35,836 bases of DNA from an uncultured Spartobacteria bacterium (lineage in GTDB: Bacteria; Verrucomicrobiota; Verrucomicrobiia; Chthoniobacterales; Chthoniobacteraceae): the NCBI GenBank assembly GCA_903933715.1, contig CAIZLD010000060.1, positions 1 to 35,836 of the forward strand, written 5' to 3'. Below the pieces are notes generated by a model. The model saw only the letters and a list, made by a program, of their open reading frames with translations. It did no database searches and had not been told where the DNA came from. Below, one piece after another: positions 1 through 6,979 of the stretch (position 1 is the stretch's first letter; each line of letters opens with the position of its first letter). The translations under genes were made by a program, and so were the position numbers.

Positions 1-136
1 GAAACATTTTTTGGAACGCTGGCAGCGAGCCAGGAAAGAGTTCTTCAACTCGCTTCCCCTGCAAAGCCTTGAAATGCGGGCTGCCTGCCATGGCGGGCCA
101 CCCTACATATTGTGGTTGTGTTCGTCAAGCGGATAA
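1..136. other. Flank or junction left of the AT-rich element
   Basis: No gene is supported here. Base composition is richer in G and C than the following gene. Near 90-109 there is a short stem (gcctgccatggcgggc) followed by ccaccctacat, which resembles the hairpin plus ccaaccctacat at 29477-29507 in the host part of the window. This suggests host-type intergenic repeat material. A stop codon at 134-136 closes the Sel1 frame just upstream of repeat-encoding sequence, so a junction may lie near here. Confidence 0.3.
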
Positions 137-1168
137 GCACGCAAGGAACTTGCAAAAAAATGGTTTGAAAAAGCAGCCGAGCAAGGCAATATGGATTCAC
201 AATATAGACTTGGGAAAATGCTATTTAATGGGGATGGGATTGCTGAAAATGCAGAACTGGCAGCGAAATGGTTTGAAAAAGCAGCCATACAAGGGAATGC
301 CCAAGCCCAAAATGAACTCGCTCTTCAGTATCTTGATGGCGTAGGAATTCAAAAGAATGAAGCATTAGCAGCCGAATGGTTTGAAAAAGCAGCTAAACAA
401 GATAACATAGATGCTTCATTAAATCTTGGATTAATGTATAAAAATGGAAGAGGGATTCCATGGAATGAAAACCTTGCTGTGAAGTGGCTTCAAAAGGCGG
501 CAAACTCTCACAATACCAATGCACAATATAATCTCGCTTGCATCTACTTTGAAGGAAAATCGGGAGCAAAAAACATAAATCTTGCACTGCAAATGTTTGA
601 AAAGTCTGCCACTCAAGGAAACGCCGATGCTCAAGCGTATCTTGGTATCATATATTTATTTGGAAGAAATGTCCCAAAAAATGAATCTCTCGCCCTCAAA
701 TTCCTTAACCAAGCAGCCCAACAAGGGCACCCAACAGCACTGAAATGCCTTGCCGACAGACAAAAATCTATTGAACGCCAACAGTTTAAATCAGAACGAG
801 CGGAAATAAATAGAAAACTAAAACATGAAAGAGAGTTGGCATTAGCTGCTTTAATCGAAAAGACTAAAAATGAAATCGAAATACGAATAAATGATTTTAA
901 ATTTAACTACAATCTTTTTTCAGGAGAGCAAAAAATTAATAAAGAACATGAGATAAAAGTTTTTGCTATTAACAAAAAATCTGAAATCGAAAAATTTAAG
1001 ATAAACAACGAGATTAAAGATTATGCCAGCGAAATTGATTTAGACAAATTTGAAGACGACTCATTAATCAAAATATTTTGGAAACAAATATTGCAAATTC
1101 AACAATCAAGCAGTCCCTATGAACAGATGAAGGAACTTAATCAAATGCTTGAAGGAAAGATAAAATAA
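137..1168 (+). pseudogene. Sel1-like repeat protein, 5' truncated
   Basis: The first ATG is at 191 and would give 325 residues. The same frame already encodes a Sel1 repeat end (WFEKAAEQGN) from 137 back to a stop at 134-136, with no start codon in that stretch, so the N-terminus appears to be missing. From the ATG there are about five 36-residue Sel1/TPR-like repeats (for example LAAKWFEKAAIQGNAQAQ) to about residue 180, then a charged, probably coiled-coil region (about 190-290) and a short tail. Sel1 repeats form helical solenoids used as protein-binding scaffolds. No signal peptide is visible. Codon use is AT-rich like the rest of the element. It could still be expressed from ATG 191 as a shortened protein. 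Partner and function are unknown. Confidence 0.7.
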
Positions 1169-1222
1169 TAAATCGAATCACTTTTTGAAAAGCCCCCCTG
1201 CCCCACTGAGGACAATTCGAGC

Positions 1223-1236
1223 AAAATAATTATTTT
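1223..1236. terminator. AT palindrome between convergent genes
   Basis: aaaataattatttt is a perfect 14-base palindrome in the 72-bp gap between the Sel1 gene (plus) and the recombinase gene (minus), which converge here. Its position suits a weak bidirectional terminator, but the stem has no GC pairs, so the assignment is tentative. Confidence 0.25.
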
Positions 1237-1240
1237 CCTA

Positions 1241-1915
1241 TCAGGACGGCTGCTTGACGTTTTCGGCGCGAAACAGAATGTTACTTACTGATTGAGCGAA
1301 GAAGGCGCGCCCTGTGGGCGTCTTGAAACCTCGGGCATTCAAGCAGCTTGCTATCCCTCGGAGCGAAACAACTCCCGAGCGTTGAATTTCCCTGATAACA
1401 AGTAATAAATTCTCGGCAAATGCCTTCGCTCGTTCCCGATTTGCGTTGGTCGCTCGTTCAAGCGAAGCAGCAGGGCGAGGATTCCCCAGCTTTTTTCCCC
1501 TCCGTTTAGCTGCTGCCAATCCGTCCTTTGTGCGTTGGGAAATCATATCCCGTTCCTTCTCCGCAACCAGAGCCATTATGCCGACCGTAAACTTATCCGC
1601 GTGAGGCATATCAACGGCGACAAATTCGACCCCTGAATCGCGTAGATTGAGCAAGAAGGCTGCATTCCGAGCGAGTCGGTCTAACTTGGCAATAATCAGC
1701 TTGGCTTTCTTCGCACGGCAAAGAGCAATCGCCTTCCTGAGTTCTTCGCGCTGATTGTTCTTTCCGCTTTCAACTTCAGCAAATTCAGCAAGCAATTCCC
1801 AATTTCCCCCATTTAGATATTGCATGACTGCATTTTTCTGCGCGGACATCCCCAAGCCAGTGACACCCTGTTTTTGGGTCGAAACTCTGTAGTAAGCCAC
1901 AACTTTTAAGTTCAT
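1241..1915 (-). CDS. Serine recombinase, resolvase/invertase family
   Basis: A 224-residue protein with the resolvase N-terminal catalytic domain. The start YYRVST places the nucleophilic serine at residue 12. The conserved IIAKLDRLARN block lies around residues 75-85 and the EKERDMISQRTKDGL E-helix region around 120-134. The C-terminus (SLRGIASCLNARGFKTPTGR) is a helix-turn-helix typical of small resolvases. Length fits the small resolvase/invertase class, not the large integrases. Such enzymes cut and rejoin DNA at paired short sites through a phosphoserine link. It may resolve multimers or invert a segment of the element. An inverted repeat and promoter immediately upstream (1923-1961) suggest self-regulation. 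The gene is visibly less GC-rich than host genes in this window. Confidence 0.9.
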   Translation of the reverse strand: MNLKVVAYYRVSTQKQGVTGLGMSAQKNAVMQYLNGGNWELLAEFAEVESGKNNQREELRKAIALCRAKKAKLIIAKLDRLARNAAFLLNLRDSGVEFVAVDMPHADKFTVGIMALVAEKERDMISQRTKDGLAAAKRRGKKLGNPRPAASLERATNANRERAKAFAENLLLVIREIQRSGVVSLRGIASCLNARGFKTPTGRAFFAQSVSNILFRAENVKQPS

Positions 1916-1922
1916 GTGAGGG

Positions 1923-1950
1923 ATTTTAGCAGAAATGTAAAGGTACGCAA
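1923..1950 (-). promoter_or_regulatory. Putative promoter of the serine recombinase
   Basis: On the minus strand TTGCGT (1945-1950) is followed after 16 bases by TAAAAT (1923-1928). The expected transcription start falls at or within a base or two of the ATG at 1915, so the mRNA would be leaderless or nearly so. Predicted from consensus match only. Confidence 0.4.
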
Positions 1951-1961
1951 CGTCCGTTACG
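1946..1961. promoter_or_regulatory. Inverted repeat over the recombinase -35
   Basis: cgcaacg-tc-cgttacg has two 7-base arms with one mismatch and overlaps the -35 hexamer of the recombinase promoter. It could be a recombinase binding site or an operator. Seen in sequence; role inferred. Confidence 0.3.
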
Positions 1962-2403
1962 CTTTTTTACATGCAGAGCATTTTTCTTGAATTCTTAAAA
2001 ATCGAGATTTGCCGAAGGTCAGATTTGGAATTTCTCACCACACCTCACAGGAAAAGCAGGAGTTGTTAATTTTAATCATACTATTAAATGATACCCGCCC
2101 CCGTTTTTGAAATTTTTTATATCTTGAATTTTGAGTAGCGGGGGGGATGGGGTAGCTTTCACTCTGTAAAACGCGGAATTACAGAAAAATCAAAATCATT
2201 TAGGGGGAGCAGGGGCTTTCTTTCCCCTACGTCCAATTTTCTAAAGGAGATGAGTCCAGGTGCAACCATGACGCGGGATGAGTGGTGTATTACATAGTAA
2301 TACCTTGCTTTTTTGTCAAAATTTCTAACTTATTTTTATTTTTGTTATTTTTAAAAAGTTTGGAGTCGGATTGAGGACGGCGGCGGCAAAAATACTCTCA
2401 ATT
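1962..2403. other. AT-rich non-coding region with G-runs
   Basis: No gene is supported in the roughly 500 bases between the recombinase and the polymerase. It contains poly-C and poly-G tracts (about 2096-2104, 2140-2155, 2203-2228), long A/T runs (2316-2360) and the inverted repeat at 2287-2303. A position just upstream of a DNA polymerase gene suits a replication origin or control region, but no iteron array is evident. Confidence 0.3.
2287..2303. promoter_or_regulatory. Perfect inverted repeat upstream of polymerase gene
   Basis: gtattac-ata-gtaatac has two perfect 7-base arms around a 3-base centre. It lies about 110-200 bases before the polymerase start, depending on the start codon. 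Its size and symmetry are those of a dimeric repressor operator or replication-protein site. No regulator is assigned. Confidence 0.4.
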
Positions 2404-2432
2404 TTGATAATTTTTGGCAAAAAAACGATATT
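2404..2432 (+). promoter_or_regulatory. Putative promoter for the polymerase gene
   Basis: TTGATA (2404-2409), a 17-base spacer and GATATT (2427-2432) form a plausible promoter. If used, transcription would start near 2440, inside the longest reading frame, which would favour the ATG at 2486 over the TTG at 2414. Confidence 0.3.
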
Positions 2433-3874
2433 TCTTGACTTCTATTAGATTTACTTATAAACTAACGGCGCAAGCCGACAAATATATGAAAAATCTAACA
2501 CGAATTACGACATCCACACACTTTAGAGAATTAACCCAAAAGACATTCCCTGGGCTTAATAGAAATCCAAAATATTGGAGATTTTTAAGGTATCTGGTTT
2601 TTGGGACGTTTTTTGACCGCGACGCCAACAACCAAAATCTGGTGATTGATAAGGGCACCATCTGCGCTCTTGCTGAAAAAGACCCTGCAAATTATTCGGC
2701 GGAAAATTTCCTTACTGCCTTCCAACGAGATGTCATGACCGAGGACACATTCCAGTGGTCCGAACATGACGCACTAAAAGGAAGAGCGCGCACGGTTAAG
2801 CTCTTAAAATTCCCAGCAGAATTCGATAAGGCTCTCCAAGCGGAACTGAAGAATACCTGGCGCAATCTCGGTCGAGTCTATTTCTGCGACGGAACGAAAT
2901 TTAGTGCGGCGAAACAAAGGAAAGAAAGAAACAGAGAAAAAAATTTTGTGAATCAGGAGCGGCACAAACCGTATTCCAAGGAAGGGCAGGAAATCAAAGA
3001 TTACATGAATGGGTTATCTGTAAATTTGTTTACAAAAATTGTGGAAAAGAACTTTGCAGCCGCGCAAATGGAGGCAGATGCCATTGCGGATTCAAAAGTG
3101 CGCAAAATTCAGCTGATATACCTGCATCGGATTTTTGACCAACCTCAACCCTTTTACGCAGCATCTGCAAACACAGACCGCATTTTCGGCTTAGGCGGGT
3201 CAATCCCTTCACTTCAGAAAGATGTTCGTCGGGCACTCACATCAGGCTGGGATGAGGCAGACCTAAAAAATGCCCAACTCGCTATCTGCGCCTCACTCTG
3301 GAAGATTGATGAAATCAATGAATACTTAACTACCGGACAAAGTATTTGGGAGCATCTTTTTGAGTTTTTCCCAGTTCCAACGTCACAGCAGAAAATAGTC
3401 AAACCAATCCTCAAAAACGCCCTGTACAGCCTCTGCTATGGAATGAAGGTGAGTAACATTAAAGGTGAAATTTCAAAAAAATTAAAGTTTCATGGAATTC
3501 AAATGCGGGGCGAGCAGTTTTTTCAATCGGATTTGATGCAAATCCTTGAGCGAGGACGGGAGAAGGAACTCGCCAGAATTGAATCTAACGGAGCGACAAC
3601 TTGTTTTGGAAAAAAACTAATCATCACAAAAACAATTACCGCCCGAAAAATTCTGGCTCAGATTGCTCAAGCTGTGGAAGTAAAGCTTATGAGCCACGTA
3701 ATTAGATTTGCCAGTAAAACCGATGAATTCAAAGTAACGCTGTGGCAGCACGATGGATTCTGCGCGAAATTCAAACGTTCCGAATATTCGGAACCATGGA
3801 AGAAAAAAATTAGCGACGTAGTAAATGGAGCGGCGGCTGAGAATGGAATCATAACCTATCTTGAATGGAAATAA
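2414..3874 (+). CDS. Divergent minimal family-A DNA polymerase
   Basis: The longest frame starts at TTG 2414 (486 residues, numbering used here). ATG 2486 (residue 25) is an alternative and neither has a clear ribosome binding site. The C-terminal half shows the three palm/finger motifs of family-A polymerases in order. Motif A is WDEADLKNAQLAI with D280. Motif B, the O-helix, is K330-x3-K334-x3-Y338-x3-Y342-G343, spaced exactly as the R-K-F-YG residues of Taq polymerase (R659, K663, F667, Y671). Motif C is LWQHDG with H446-D447. The Phe position carries Tyr, as in T7 polymerase, and the usual HDE is HDG. The N-terminal about 250 residues match no 3'-5' exonuclease I can recognise. The protein is much shorter than Pol I. 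It probably replicates or primes the element. The family assignment rests on motifs I read by eye. Confidence 0.65.
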   Translation: MAKKRYFLTSIRFTYKLTAQADKYMKNLTRITTSTHFRELTQKTFPGLNRNPKYWRFLRYLVFGTFFDRDANNQNLVIDKGTICALAEKDPANYSAENFLTAFQRDVMTEDTFQWSEHDALKGRARTVKLLKFPAEFDKALQAELKNTWRNLGRVYFCDGTKFSAAKQRKERNREKNFVNQERHKPYSKEGQEIKDYMNGLSVNLFTKIVEKNFAAAQMEADAIADSKVRKIQLIYLHRIFDQPQPFYAASANTDRIFGLGGSIPSLQKDVRRALTSGWDEADLKNAQLAICASLWKIDEINEYLTTGQSIWEHLFEFFPVPTSQQKIVKPILKNALYSLCYGMKVSNIKGEISKKLKFHGIQMRGEQFFQSDLMQILERGREKELARIESNGATTCFGKKLIITKTITARKILAQIAQAVEVKLMSHVIRFASKTDEFKVTLWQHDGFCAKFKRSEYSEPWKKKISDVVNGAAAENGIITYLEWK

Positions 3875-4137
3875 AGAATTATCAAACAAATTTCCACACT
3901 TCCTCTTATTGTCCTCCTAATCTTCCTCCTAATTATCCATCCCCCTATAGATTCATGTTCTCCAATGTAGAGTAAAGCATTGCTATGTTATTAGAGTAAT
4001 TTGAGATATTTAGTTTTCAAGAAATTACAATTATACCAAGAAACTACACAACATTCGAAATAATTTCCTCGCCGACGATTTATTAACCATTAAACAAAAA
4101 CATCTTCACACACCTTGCGGATAAAAATGGTTTCGTC
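3875..4137. other. AT-rich non-coding region after the polymerase gene
   Basis: No gene is supported between the polymerase and the next promoter. The plus strand is pyrimidine-rich at 3897-3935 and contains two direct copies of tcctcctaat (3912-3921 and 3924-3933, 12-base period). The rest is AT-rich with no strong hairpin. Confidence 0.35.
3912..3933. repeat. Direct repeat tcctcctaat, two copies
   Basis: Two identical 10-base copies with a 12-base period lie just after the polymerase stop codon. They could be short iterons. As RNA, the plus strand carries CCUCCU twice, the anti-Shine-Dalgarno core. The function is unknown. Confidence 0.4.
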
Positions 4138-4168
4138 TTGACTTATTGCTCCATTTTTTATATATAAT
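4138..4168 (+). promoter_or_regulatory. Promoter of the ART-like/HTH gene pair
   Basis: TTGACT (4138-4143) is followed by a 17-base spacer and TATATA (4161-4166), or by 19 bases and TATAAT (4163-4168). Transcription would start near 4175, giving a leader of about 35 bases without a Shine-Dalgarno sequence. This is the best promoter match in the element. Confidence 0.55.
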
Positions 4169-4210
4169 AGTAACTCCCAAAAAGGGATAACACACAACAA
4201 ACAAATCAAT

Positions 4211-4909
4211 ATGAATATAGAAAGAATCAAAATACATAGGGAAAGGGATTTATTCTCACTGCTCAAAAGTCACTGCATCAACGGAAGTGCCGTTGTTTCA
4301 GAAATTCTAGAAGAAGCAAAATCGAATCGGGACTGGGATGTCTATTTTGAGTTATTATCATCACATGTTCCATTAAACAGCACCTCACCAAGGCACGAGC
4401 GATTGCGCCAATTAAAAATACAAAGGAATTTACTGACAGATGAAGAATATTGGCGGCAAGTAGGGAAAGCATGCCTTTATAATGGATGTTCTAGTGAGAA
4501 TGATGGATTATACCGAGAATTACTTCTCAGCAAACGAACAAAACGGGAGAAGATAATGCTGCTATCAGAAAGAAAGACCTTAAAATCGCTTGCCTCTAAA
4601 ATCAACGTTTATCGCGGTTTTAATCATCCGAGCCTTGCAAATGGGTGGTCATGGTCACTAAAAGAAGATGTTGCAAAACATTATTCATTAAATGATACGT
4701 GTGGTCTTATCACGCAAGGTCTTTGCCTCAAAAAGAACGTGATTGCCTATTTTGAAAACGGAAACTCCTACGAAAACACGCAAGAGATTCTCATTCCACC
4801 CGAGCACGTAAATATTATTTCTTGGCGAAACTCTTTTTCAGACGAGGTGAAGGATGGCAAGCAAATCTGGCATCCAAGGCGTACTTTACCGAAGGCGGAG
4901 GAAGAATAA
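4211..4909 (+). CDS. Putative ADP-ribosyltransferase-fold protein
   Basis: A 232-residue protein without signal peptide or membrane segment. The N-terminal about 125 residues are helical and unrecognised. The C-terminal part has the layout of R-S-E ADP-ribosyltransferases of the type found in phages. INVYRGF supplies R135. GWSWSLKEDVAKHYS supplies the S-x-S strand (S147, S149). CLKKNVIAYFENGNSYENTQEILIPPEHV supplies E192. In known relatives, the equivalent pattern (YRG, G-x-SWT, AYF, E-E-[IV]) surrounds the NAD pocket. Only one acidic residue is seen where arginine-specific enzymes have ExE. The stop codon is immediately followed by the ATG of the HTH gene, so the two are co-transcribed. Possible roles are modifying a host protein or acting as a toxin or defence effector. 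Activity is not demonstrated, and the call rests on motif order alone. Confidence 0.45.
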   Translation: MNIERIKIHRERDLFSLLKSHCINGSAVVSEILEEAKSNRDWDVYFELLSSHVPLNSTSPRHERLRQLKIQRNLLTDEEYWRQVGKACLYNGCSSENDGLYRELLLSKRTKREKIMLLSERKTLKSLASKINVYRGFNHPSLANGWSWSLKEDVAKHYSLNDTCGLITQGLCLKKNVIAYFENGNSYENTQEILIPPEHVNIISWRNSFSDEVKDGKQIWHPRRTLPKAEEE

Positions 4910-5209
4910 ATGGAAGAACAACAGAATAAAATCCTTCCCTTTCCAACACAAGAAGCAGATTTATTTCGTCTGCTTTTGAACGAGATAAAAGCACTGAAAA
5001 AAGAACTTCTGAGTCAAGTCGATTGCTGGATGGATAAAAAGGCGGCAGCCAAATATATGGGCATTGGTTTATCTTCTTTCGACAAATACCGATATAATAC
5101 GAATCCAAAAATAAAGGGTTACAGTCTCGACGGAAAAACACTCTACAAGAAATCAGACATCGATACCTTTATTCGGCTCTATGCCTTGAAGGCTGACATG
5201 GCAGCTTAA
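4910..5209 (+). CDS. Excisionase-like HTH DNA-binding protein
   Basis: A 99-residue protein that starts at the base after the previous stop codon. Residues about 40-90 (CWMDKKAAAKYMGIGLSSFDKYRYN, then GKTLYKKSDIDTFIRLY) have the winged-helix pattern of MerR/AlpA/excisionase-like HTH_17 proteins: an instruction to an AAxYMG helix, a recognition helix, and a wing ending in YKKSDIDTFI. The N-terminal about 35 residues are probably helical. Such proteins direct excision or repress element genes. Its 3' end overlaps by 57 bases the 3' end of the convergent integrase frame, which supports an integrase/excisionase module. No symbol is given because the family contains both regulators and excisionases. 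Confidence 0.7.
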   Translation: MEEQQNKILPFPTQEADLFRLLLNEIKALKKELLSQVDCWMDKKAAAKYMGIGLSSFDKYRYNTNPKIKGYSLDGKTLYKKSDIDTFIRLYALKADMAA

Positions 5210-6486
5210 GGCGGCTTTGATTGTTTCGGTGTAACCCTCTGGCGGCATAACGGCAAACCAAGATTCTGCTTCCTTGTCTGAGACATTGCGCTTGTAGCTG
5301 TCGATAATCTCTGAGGGGCTGTTCCCCATCTCGGCGGCAAGTTCCACCAAATCGCCTTTTAATTGGCGATAGCGATAAGATGCAAGGAATGGCGGTATCC
5401 ATCGTCAATCCCTTTAATTCCTGCCTTCTTCCGTAATGCCCCCATTTTCTTTTCGTGGTTTGCTTTGTGAGTCCAAATACCAGCTTGCAATCCCTTGAAG
5501 GGCTCTAGCCACGCCTTAACCGCATCATTTAAAGGAATATCTCTTGTGGCCTTTGAGCGAATTTTCTGGCCAATGACGTGGAGTTGATTATCAGTCCAAT
5601 TGAAAGCCTCCCACTTGAGCGGGCCTCTTTCCAAACCCTCCCCGTGAATTTCAAAGGGTCGTAACCCCAAAAAACAGCCAATCGCAATGACTGGAATTAA
5701 ATCAGCGAATTTTATGTCGGTCGCGGTTGCGAGCAACTTTCCAAGCTGTTCTGGTGTGTAAATTTCAACCGGTTGTTTAACGCCGTCTTTCGAAGTTCGG
5801 ACTTTTTGAAACTCGGTTTTCCCATTTTCAGGAATAGCCTTTAGAATCTCTTGCGCAAAAAGTGAAAGTGTTACCAAAGAGCCTCTGACACTCCTTTTTG
5901 TTTTCGCACTCCAAAGTTTCCCGCTTCCTTCATCCGTTCTGGTTCCCAGCCAGTTGGTGATTTCCAAGGAGGTAATTTCGTGAATACGGCAACACCCGAA
6001 ATCCTTTTCAAAACGGCGAAAATGCTTTTGAAGGGTTTTGATATGAATCCCCGTAGCATTGGCAGTTTTTCTGTCTTGGATGAACGGCTCAATGCACTCC
6101 GAAAAGGTTTTTGGTTGGAGTCTCTTGATTTTGGAATTATCGAGGAAAAAACGAACGGCATCCCGCAGGCTCGTTCCGTCGCTCCGTTCGGCTAAAAGCT
6201 GTTCCAATTCAAAAATTTCTTTGGCTTTGGCCCGGATGGGAAAAAGGGTTTGGCTTTCATCTTGTGCGGTATCGAGTCTCAAAAACTCGTCTTCAAGATA
6301 GTCCACGGCGGCTTCAACCGTGGCGAAAGTGTTTTGACGGGGTTTGCCTGCGAATTGGAAATGGGTCTTAAAACGTCCGTTCGCCGTCTTGTAAATCTTG
6401 CCGGTTCTGCCGTTTTTTTCAAACTTCACCGGAAACTGTTTTTTTTGGCTCTTAGCGGGGCGTTTTGGCACCCCTTCCATATACAA
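5153..6486 (-). pseudogene. Tyrosine integrase, frameshifted
   Basis: The reading frame from ATG 6486 (MYMEG) runs 375 residues and ends at 5359 right after YRHS. It has an N-terminal arm/SAM-like domain (about 105-215) and a catalytic domain with R276 (CFLGLRPFEI), a lysine near 308-312 and R365-H366. The tail reappears in another frame from about 5383 to 5153 as ASYRYRQLKGDLVELAAEMG then NSPSEIIDSYKR. That stretch contains the missing helix and the catalytic tyrosine. A single missing base near 5383-5386 explains the break: restoring it gives RHS-x-ASYR, the standard integrase sequence, and a protein of about 444 residues. The start lies about 140 bases from the ssrA 3' end, as expected for an ssrA-specific integrase. 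Either it is inactivated and locks the element in place, or the deletion is a sequencing error. Confidence 0.85.
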
Positions 6487-6581
6487 GATATACAGAAATG
6501 CGCAAGTTTCTTTGGGGTTGTTTTGGGTTCTGGAAACCTGCGCCTCATTCAGGAGGCTCGATGGAAACGCCTAATAAACAA

Positions 6582-6610
6582 TGCTTTGCGGTCGCTTTAC
6601 CGTTGCTTTG
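6582..6610. repeat. Short repeats beside the attachment site, possible arm sites
   Basis: tgctttg occurs at 6582-6588 and 6604-6610, 22 bases apart, with a gcttt core between them at 6594-6598. They lie between the integrase start and ssrA. Tyrosine integrases often bind short repeated arm sites here. Inferred from position. Confidence 0.35.
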
Positions 6611-6615
6611 TGAAT

Positions 6616-6655
6616 ACGTAAAAACTGGAGGCGAGGGGAGTTGAACCCCTGTCCT
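6616..6655. other. Probable attachment site (element/ssrA junction)
   Basis: The AT-rich element meets the ssrA acceptor and T-arm here. Integrases beside tmRNA genes typically recombine within this 3' segment and restore it. No second direct copy of ggaggcgaggggagttgaac is seen elsewhere in the window, so the exact core cannot be set. Confidence 0.5.
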
Positions 6656-6979
6656 TCAGGCTAAAGCCGCCCGCTTCTACATGCTTGTCTGGCCTACTAT
6701 TTAGGATGCCGACTGCGGGCCAACGCGCGTTCGGAATCCGATTGGCCACGAAATGATCTCGCCCTCGGACGCGGTCAACCCGCCCTTAGGCCAGCCTGCT
6801 GTCGTCGTCTCCGGCTGTAGCAGGCGTCCCGCCGGAAACGTCACGGTCAATTAAGCCGCGAGAGCTAGTTCTTCAGACTCAGCATTTATTTTTTTTGATC
6901 CGGATTTTAACGAGGCCAACGAATCATCCTCGGCATGCGACGTGCGTCTCAAACTTGGAGTCGAGACCAGTACGCCCCC
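6626..6979 (-). ncRNA. ssrA: tmRNA (transfer-messenger RNA)
   Basis: The 5' end GGGGGCG (6979-6973), followed by the conserved GTCTCGACTCC-type sequence, pairs with the 3' CGCCTCC (6633-6627), with one G-U pair. The T-arm GGGGTTCAACTCCCC precedes it. Mature length is about 354 nt with discriminator A at 6626, and CCA is not encoded. The internal tag frame ends at a TAA (6853-6851) and reads ...AESEELALAA, with the usual ALAA degradation signal. The resume codon may be the GCT at 6883. tmRNA with SmpB rescues stalled ribosomes and tags the nascent peptide for proteolysis. Its 3' end is the integration target of the element to the left. Confidence 0.95.

Follow-up and report, generated by a model that had tools for sequence, protein, structure and literature searches.

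The window, a stretch of 35,836 nucleotides from an uncultured Spartobacteria bacterium, comprises two parts of different composition: GC content is 0.33-0.51 left of about position 6600 and 0.53-0.66 beyond. The left part belongs to an island integrated at the 3' end of the tmRNA gene ssrA (Table 1), whose genes run in the order HTH gene, Sel1 gene, serine recombinase, polymerase, phrog_4776-like protein, small HTH protein and integrase. The integrase frame stops before the expected catalytic Tyr and looks frameshifted; this copy of the element may therefore be decayed or immobile. No helicase was recognised in the window island, nor any polymerase-SSB-helicase arrangement, and no iterons were found near the polymerase gene. 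The phrog_4776-like protein contains a stretch (YRG...GWSWS) that recalls ADP-ribosyltransferases.

The copy of the att repeat elsewhere in the same genome stands 1.2 kb from the end of contig C58. The right end of C58 and the start of the window carry the two ends of one insertion sequence inside a Sel1-repeat gene, together with an 8-bp duplication, CAAGGAAC (near window 142-149, flanking the end repeat near 104-141). The assembly breaks at this insertion sequence, and the two contigs are very probably neighbours, in which case the island measures about 7.9 kb (roughly 8 kb) plus the insertion sequence. On C58 (locus L075) this copy, at 50116-50139, is one of two ssrA-end-like copies; the other stands 6.5 kb away, at 43574-43597. 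They enclose a TolC/MFP/RND efflux operon, and the region may be a further island inserted in tandem at ssrA.

Table 1. Features of the ssrA island in the window (residues numbered from ATG 2486).
Feature	Position	Strand	Evidence
Right part of integrated island	1..6649	.	GC drop, att copy, ssrA
Sel1-repeat gene of island, interrupted by insertion sequence at contig junction	1..1168	+	end repeat near 104-141
Small serine recombinase (resolvase/invertase type), divergent from polymerase gene	1241..1915	-	Pfam Resolvase 8e-29
TV-Pol-type polymerase gene, 462 aa (probable start)	2486..3874	+	homologue starts, profile matches, conserved residues
N-terminal half, without recognised domain	2486..3100	+	branch-conserved FR...P....YWR.L, RVxFxxG, YxNG
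Motif A, D259-L-K-N-A-Q264, Gln at steric-gate Glu position	3260..3277	+	family alignment, PDB profile alignment
Motif B / O-helix, K306...K310...Y314...Y318-G319	3401..3442	+	family alignment, PDB profile alignment
Q395..E398 motif (helix Q region)	3668..3679	+	invariant in window branch and TV-Pols
Motif C, H422-D423-G424	3749..3757	+	family alignment, PDB profile alignment
Hypothetical protein, phrog_4776-like	4211..4909	+	PHROGs match E 6e-20
Small HTH protein (HTH_17 / excisionase-like)	4910..5209	+	Pfam and PHROGs
Tyrosine integrase-like gene adjoining ssrA 3' end	5359..6486	-	phrog_1 integrase 8e-12
attR, the ssrA 3' end TGGAGGCGAGGGGAGTTGAACCCC	6626..6649	+	copy with 1 mismatch in own genome, C58:50116-50139
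tmRNA gene ssrA, integration site	6626..6979	-	tmRNA gene detection

The polymerase gene and its relatives

The open reading frame at 2414-3874 (+) exists as the sequence-only reading had described it, with polymerase A motifs A, B and C in order. That reading began the frame at TTG 2414; since homologues begin at the point occupied by ATG 2486 (MKNLTRITTSTHFREL / MKFYDRTVSGEFREEL / MNYYKQYNRTVSKEFREL), the real start is probably this ATG, which would give a protein of 462 aa, and residues are numbered from it here (the earlier numbers minus 24). The gene is single-copy in its own genome. Comparisons of related pairs show purifying selection, with dN/dS of about 0.14 and 0.23, although dS is saturated.

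Single-sequence searches with the window protein (Pfam, PHROGs, NCBIfam, PDB, phages) gave nothing useful, and viral contigs yielded no relative either, whether scanned with the protein, pairs or motif patterns. A weak match to a Caulobacter phage Pol I was dropped as evidence, its motif A being out of register, and matches to AcrE1 in the PDB were short chance alignments. A tblastn search of plasmids yielded a single homologue, carried by megaplasmid pDEIPE01 of Deinococcus peraridilitoris (27% identity, 95% coverage, 3e-29). Two motifs shared by the window and Deinococcus proteins (Q..E.K and W.HDG) were then combined in a DNA pattern, which hit 10 loci in genome contigs. One of these was a true relative and became the third member of the family; it belongs to a MAG of Armatimonadota (profile E 1e-45). 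A search of Armatimonadota gave matches in 14 of 291 genomes. Altogether 14 relatives were gathered, from the Deinococcus megaplasmid and from Armatimonadota. In the window's own class the search gave essentially the window gene alone, apart from one short match at 5e-4. So scattered a distribution is what a mobile gene would be expected to show.

Alignment of 15 proteins (19-31% identity to the window) leaves 11 positions invariant: G136, Y224, R232, R248, D259, K310, G319, Q395, E398, D423 and G424. The motif B proposed earlier (K330/K334/Y338/Y342, here K306/K310/Y314/Y318) is recovered: position 306 is K in 13 proteins and R in two, and Tyr occupies position 314 in all but one of the 15. 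So is motif C, in which the former D447 is the invariant D423; HDG stands in 13 of the 15 proteins, FDG or YDG in the other two. The assignment of the motif A Asp has to be corrected: D280 (now D256) is not conserved, and the true residue is D283 (now D259, in DLKNAQ). At the steric gate the Glu of Taq (E615) and Klenow (E710) is replaced by Gln in 14 of the 15 and by His in one.

The gene does not always keep pace with its surroundings. In one pair of relatives the polymerases (L060:8995-10356 and L061:8983-10353) are 51% identical and their neighbours 79-98% identical; this difference suggests that divergence or exchange is more rapid for the polymerase gene than for the remainder of that island.

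A diverged branch of the TV-Pol group

A match to the DNA polymerase I family, which the sequence-only reading had put forward as a check, was obtained by one route and not by the other. PF00476 gave no match for the window protein, and three of 15 relatives match it singly, below cut-off (best 21.9 bits against a gathering cut-off of 34.3). A profile built from 11 family members, with no Pol I included, did match Pol I-type enzymes in the PDB: Pol nu (1e-7), Taq (5e-7), Pol theta (6e-5) and T7 DNA polymerase (0.01). These alignments follow the palm and fingers colinearly and take in motifs A, B and C, and the invariant metal-binding pair D259 and D423 aligns with that of Taq and Pol nu. Structure prediction added little: two AlphaFold models from two-row alignments (window and L029) had pLDDT of 44 and 50, too low for use, and a Foldseek search with the second ranked Taq, Klenow and Bacillus Pol I at the top by weak matches (E about 0.08-0.24, rmsd near 16 A).

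The protein shares with DNA polymerase I (PF00476; Taq, Klenow) the order and spacing of motifs, both Asp residues, the O-helix K and the YG pair, whereas it has no exonuclease domains – Pfam, PHROGs and NCBIfam searches bear out the earlier reading on this point – and carries Gln for Glu at the gate and HDG for HDE in motif C. In these residues it departs from a typical Pol I. Tyr at the O-helix position of Taq F667 is a likeness to T7 DNA polymerase, yet the T7 profile match is weak and Tyr alone is no proof of kinship; T7-like ancestry was rejected, the fit to TV-Pol profiles being far better.

TV-Pols are minimal superfamily A polymerases of 400-600 residues found in mobile elements with a resolvase, integrase or D5 helicase (Iyer, Abhiman and Aravind 2008, PMC2579912). 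A subset has an all-helical N-terminal domain, with resolvase and integrase among the neighbours and restriction-modification operons nearby; their characteristics are two metal-binding Asp in an RRM-like palm, an absolutely conserved Arg in the beta-hairpin before motif A, in the fingers both RxxxK and a conserved Asp, and no nuclease, either as a domain or linked to the gene, and they were predicted to be the primase-polymerases of transposons and small viruses (PMC2579912). We assigned gp030 of the Microcystis phage Ma-LMM01 as the TV-Pol of that paper by its motifs and its position beside transposases, and from it located further TV-Pols on Polaromonas and Calothrix plasmids.

By hhalign, in a small comparison set, the family profile scored 98.9% against TV-Pols (E 3e-17) and 97.5% against Synechococcus plasmid proteins (5e-12); profile-profile comparison with a small Pol I set gave 33% (4.5e-4). 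A TV-Pol profile matched the window ORF at 2e-9, and a profile from the Armatimonadota relatives alone matched it at 1.6e-104: in each case it was the sole significant ORF in 35.8 kb. The two profiles are independent, and the reading of this ORF is not due to chance. TV-Pols and the window family have in common HDG, Q..E and H/Q at the gate, and R232, before motif A, is invariant in the 15 proteins and likewise in every TV-Pol and Synechococcus sequence of the comparison. The hhalign scores (98.9% vs 33% for Pol I), the 2e-9 match and the common motifs place the core, at the level of sequence, in the TV-Pol group.

Within that group the family is a separate diverged branch. It forms its own branch in the tree, where deep support is weak. 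Its fingers read (K/R)xxxK, of which TV-Pols keep only the second K in the alignment, and position 286, aligned near the TV-Pol fingers Asp, is mostly Ser. The N-terminal half showed no detectable similarity to those of four TV-Pols and none to any domain searched, in keeping with the earlier impression that it looks novel; we take it to be specific to the branch. The sequence-only reading suggested a fused priming or origin-binding domain; the sole hint of a DNA-binding domain joined to the core comes from a distant relative (L044:1390-2841), which has a winged-helix (TrmB/IclR-like) N-terminus. Together, the retained catalytic residues, the PDB profile matches and the TV-Pol kinship uphold the earlier description of a minimal polymerase of family A type.

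Islands and plasmids that carry relatives

The earlier reading asked whether homologues track mobile elements, and they do. In three other genomes relatives lie between tRNA-end repeats that are perfect or nearly so: of 46 bp, 18.9 kb apart (G747), of 47 bp, 23.7 kb apart (G733), and with one mismatch in 40, 5.5 kb apart (G687). The last of these islands (L067, G687:C15:3580-9147) is bounded by tRNA-Ala and has an integrase and a mere 224-aa C-terminal fragment of the polymerase. Tyrosine or large serine recombinases are found near relatives, and the cargo consists of type I restriction-modification or SNF2/DISARM-like genes. The small serine recombinase of the window is itself 29% identical to those adjoining TV-Pols on two Polaromonas plasmids. 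D5_N helicase was found on none of the island contigs examined, which sets the branch apart from TV-Pols; residence in mobile elements with resolvase or integrase, near restriction-modification operons, it shares with them.

On three of the four Synechococcus plasmids examined a relative adjoins parA-parB. Two of these, of 24 kb, have no other recognised Rep, and the third (31.6 kb) also carries CyRepA1; RepA is likewise present on the two TV-Pol plasmids of Polaromonas. Among the Synechococcus elongatus plasmids (L054, L070, L071), those of 24 kb hold whole CRISPR-Cas loci of differing types on the same backbone, and the 31.6-kb plasmid holds DISARM genes.

The sequence-only reading had proposed an undescribed replication protein of small mobile elements. 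The island and the relatives support the mobile-element part of this proposal; "undescribed" does not stand, the TV-Pol group having been described in 2008.

Role of the polymerase

We consider it probable that the protein is a diverged TV-Pol-type polymerase on a small integrative element at the 3' end of ssrA, which copies its element and likely primes its own synthesis. A site-specific recombinase would excise the element from ssrA, the polymerase would copy the excised circle or an incoming strand, and the copied element would then reintegrate. Synthesis would probably be started by the polymerase itself, as in CcPol-MP; the N-terminal half may recognise element DNA or a partner, which is a guess. 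RepA on the Polaromonas TV-Pol plasmids speaks against an initiator role common to all such polymerases, and with CyRepA1 on one Synechococcus plasmid it indicates that initiation does not have to fall to the polymerase.

The analogy for self-priming comes from CcPol-MP, for which self-priming synthesis is reported, and CcPol of SCCmec is counted among proteins of TV-Pol kind (PMC7581432, PMC10061031). CcPol-MP and PolA-SSB systems resemble the window in having an A-family core without a working nuclease, on a genomic island with a serine recombinase, some of the elements being inserted at ssrA (PMC7581432, PMC10061031). They differ in that a gene for an OB-fold SSB lies between polymerase and helicase, whereas the window island has neither a helicase nor a recognised OB-fold SSB, and, compared by description, BLAST reaches Pol I from CcPol and not from the window family. 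Against a replicative role, then, stand the lack of an island helicase and of an identified OB-fold partner, since primases with demonstrated activity need a partner.

Islands without a helicase or a recognised initiator would also suit a repair or gap-filling (or second-strand) polymerase that aids integration or establishment after transfer and serves neither replication nor priming of the element; second-strand synthesis has been raised as an alternative role in SCC elements (PMC10061031). We regard this as unlikely, for the polymerase has no linked nuclease or ligase, adjoins parAB on the 24-kb plasmids and has TV-Pol kin whose context favours replication. Small HNH-like ORFs do directly adjoin the polymerase gene in Deinococcus (L002:13738-14070) and Armatimonadota (L029:6862-7401), so that linkage to a nuclease is not wholly absent among relatives. 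The type I restriction-modification and SNF2/DISARM-like genes around relatives, and the CRISPR-Cas or DISARM loci of the plasmids, could instead suggest a component of an anti-phage defence system; we give this little credence, because no defence gene was recognised in the island of the window and because cargo varies between islands while polymerase and recombinase recur, which makes the polymerase look like backbone. That the protein is a pseudoenzyme or non-working relic, as the broken-looking integrase frame and the short G687 fragment might imply, is slightly less credible again: the frame is full-length with every catalytic residue retained, and related pairs show purifying selection.

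Returning to a polymerase that copies its own element, the protein is, by its sequence, ordinary in kind and new as a branch. TV-Pol-like polymerases are extended to a branch that general databases miss, in Armatimonadota, Deinococcota, Cyanobacteria and the window's own lineage, on islands bounded by tRNA genes and ssrA and beside parAB on plasmids. The boldest reading, a doubtful one, is that one protein combines origin recognition by its N-terminal half with self-primed family-A synthesis, and so replicates a minimal element or plasmid that itself encodes neither helicase nor SSB nor primase. If it is true that the polymerase primes and replicates without a helicase, it would rank with the smallest known modules for DNA replication, and the primase-polymerase role predicted for TV-Pols in 2008 would become testable in a one-gene system.
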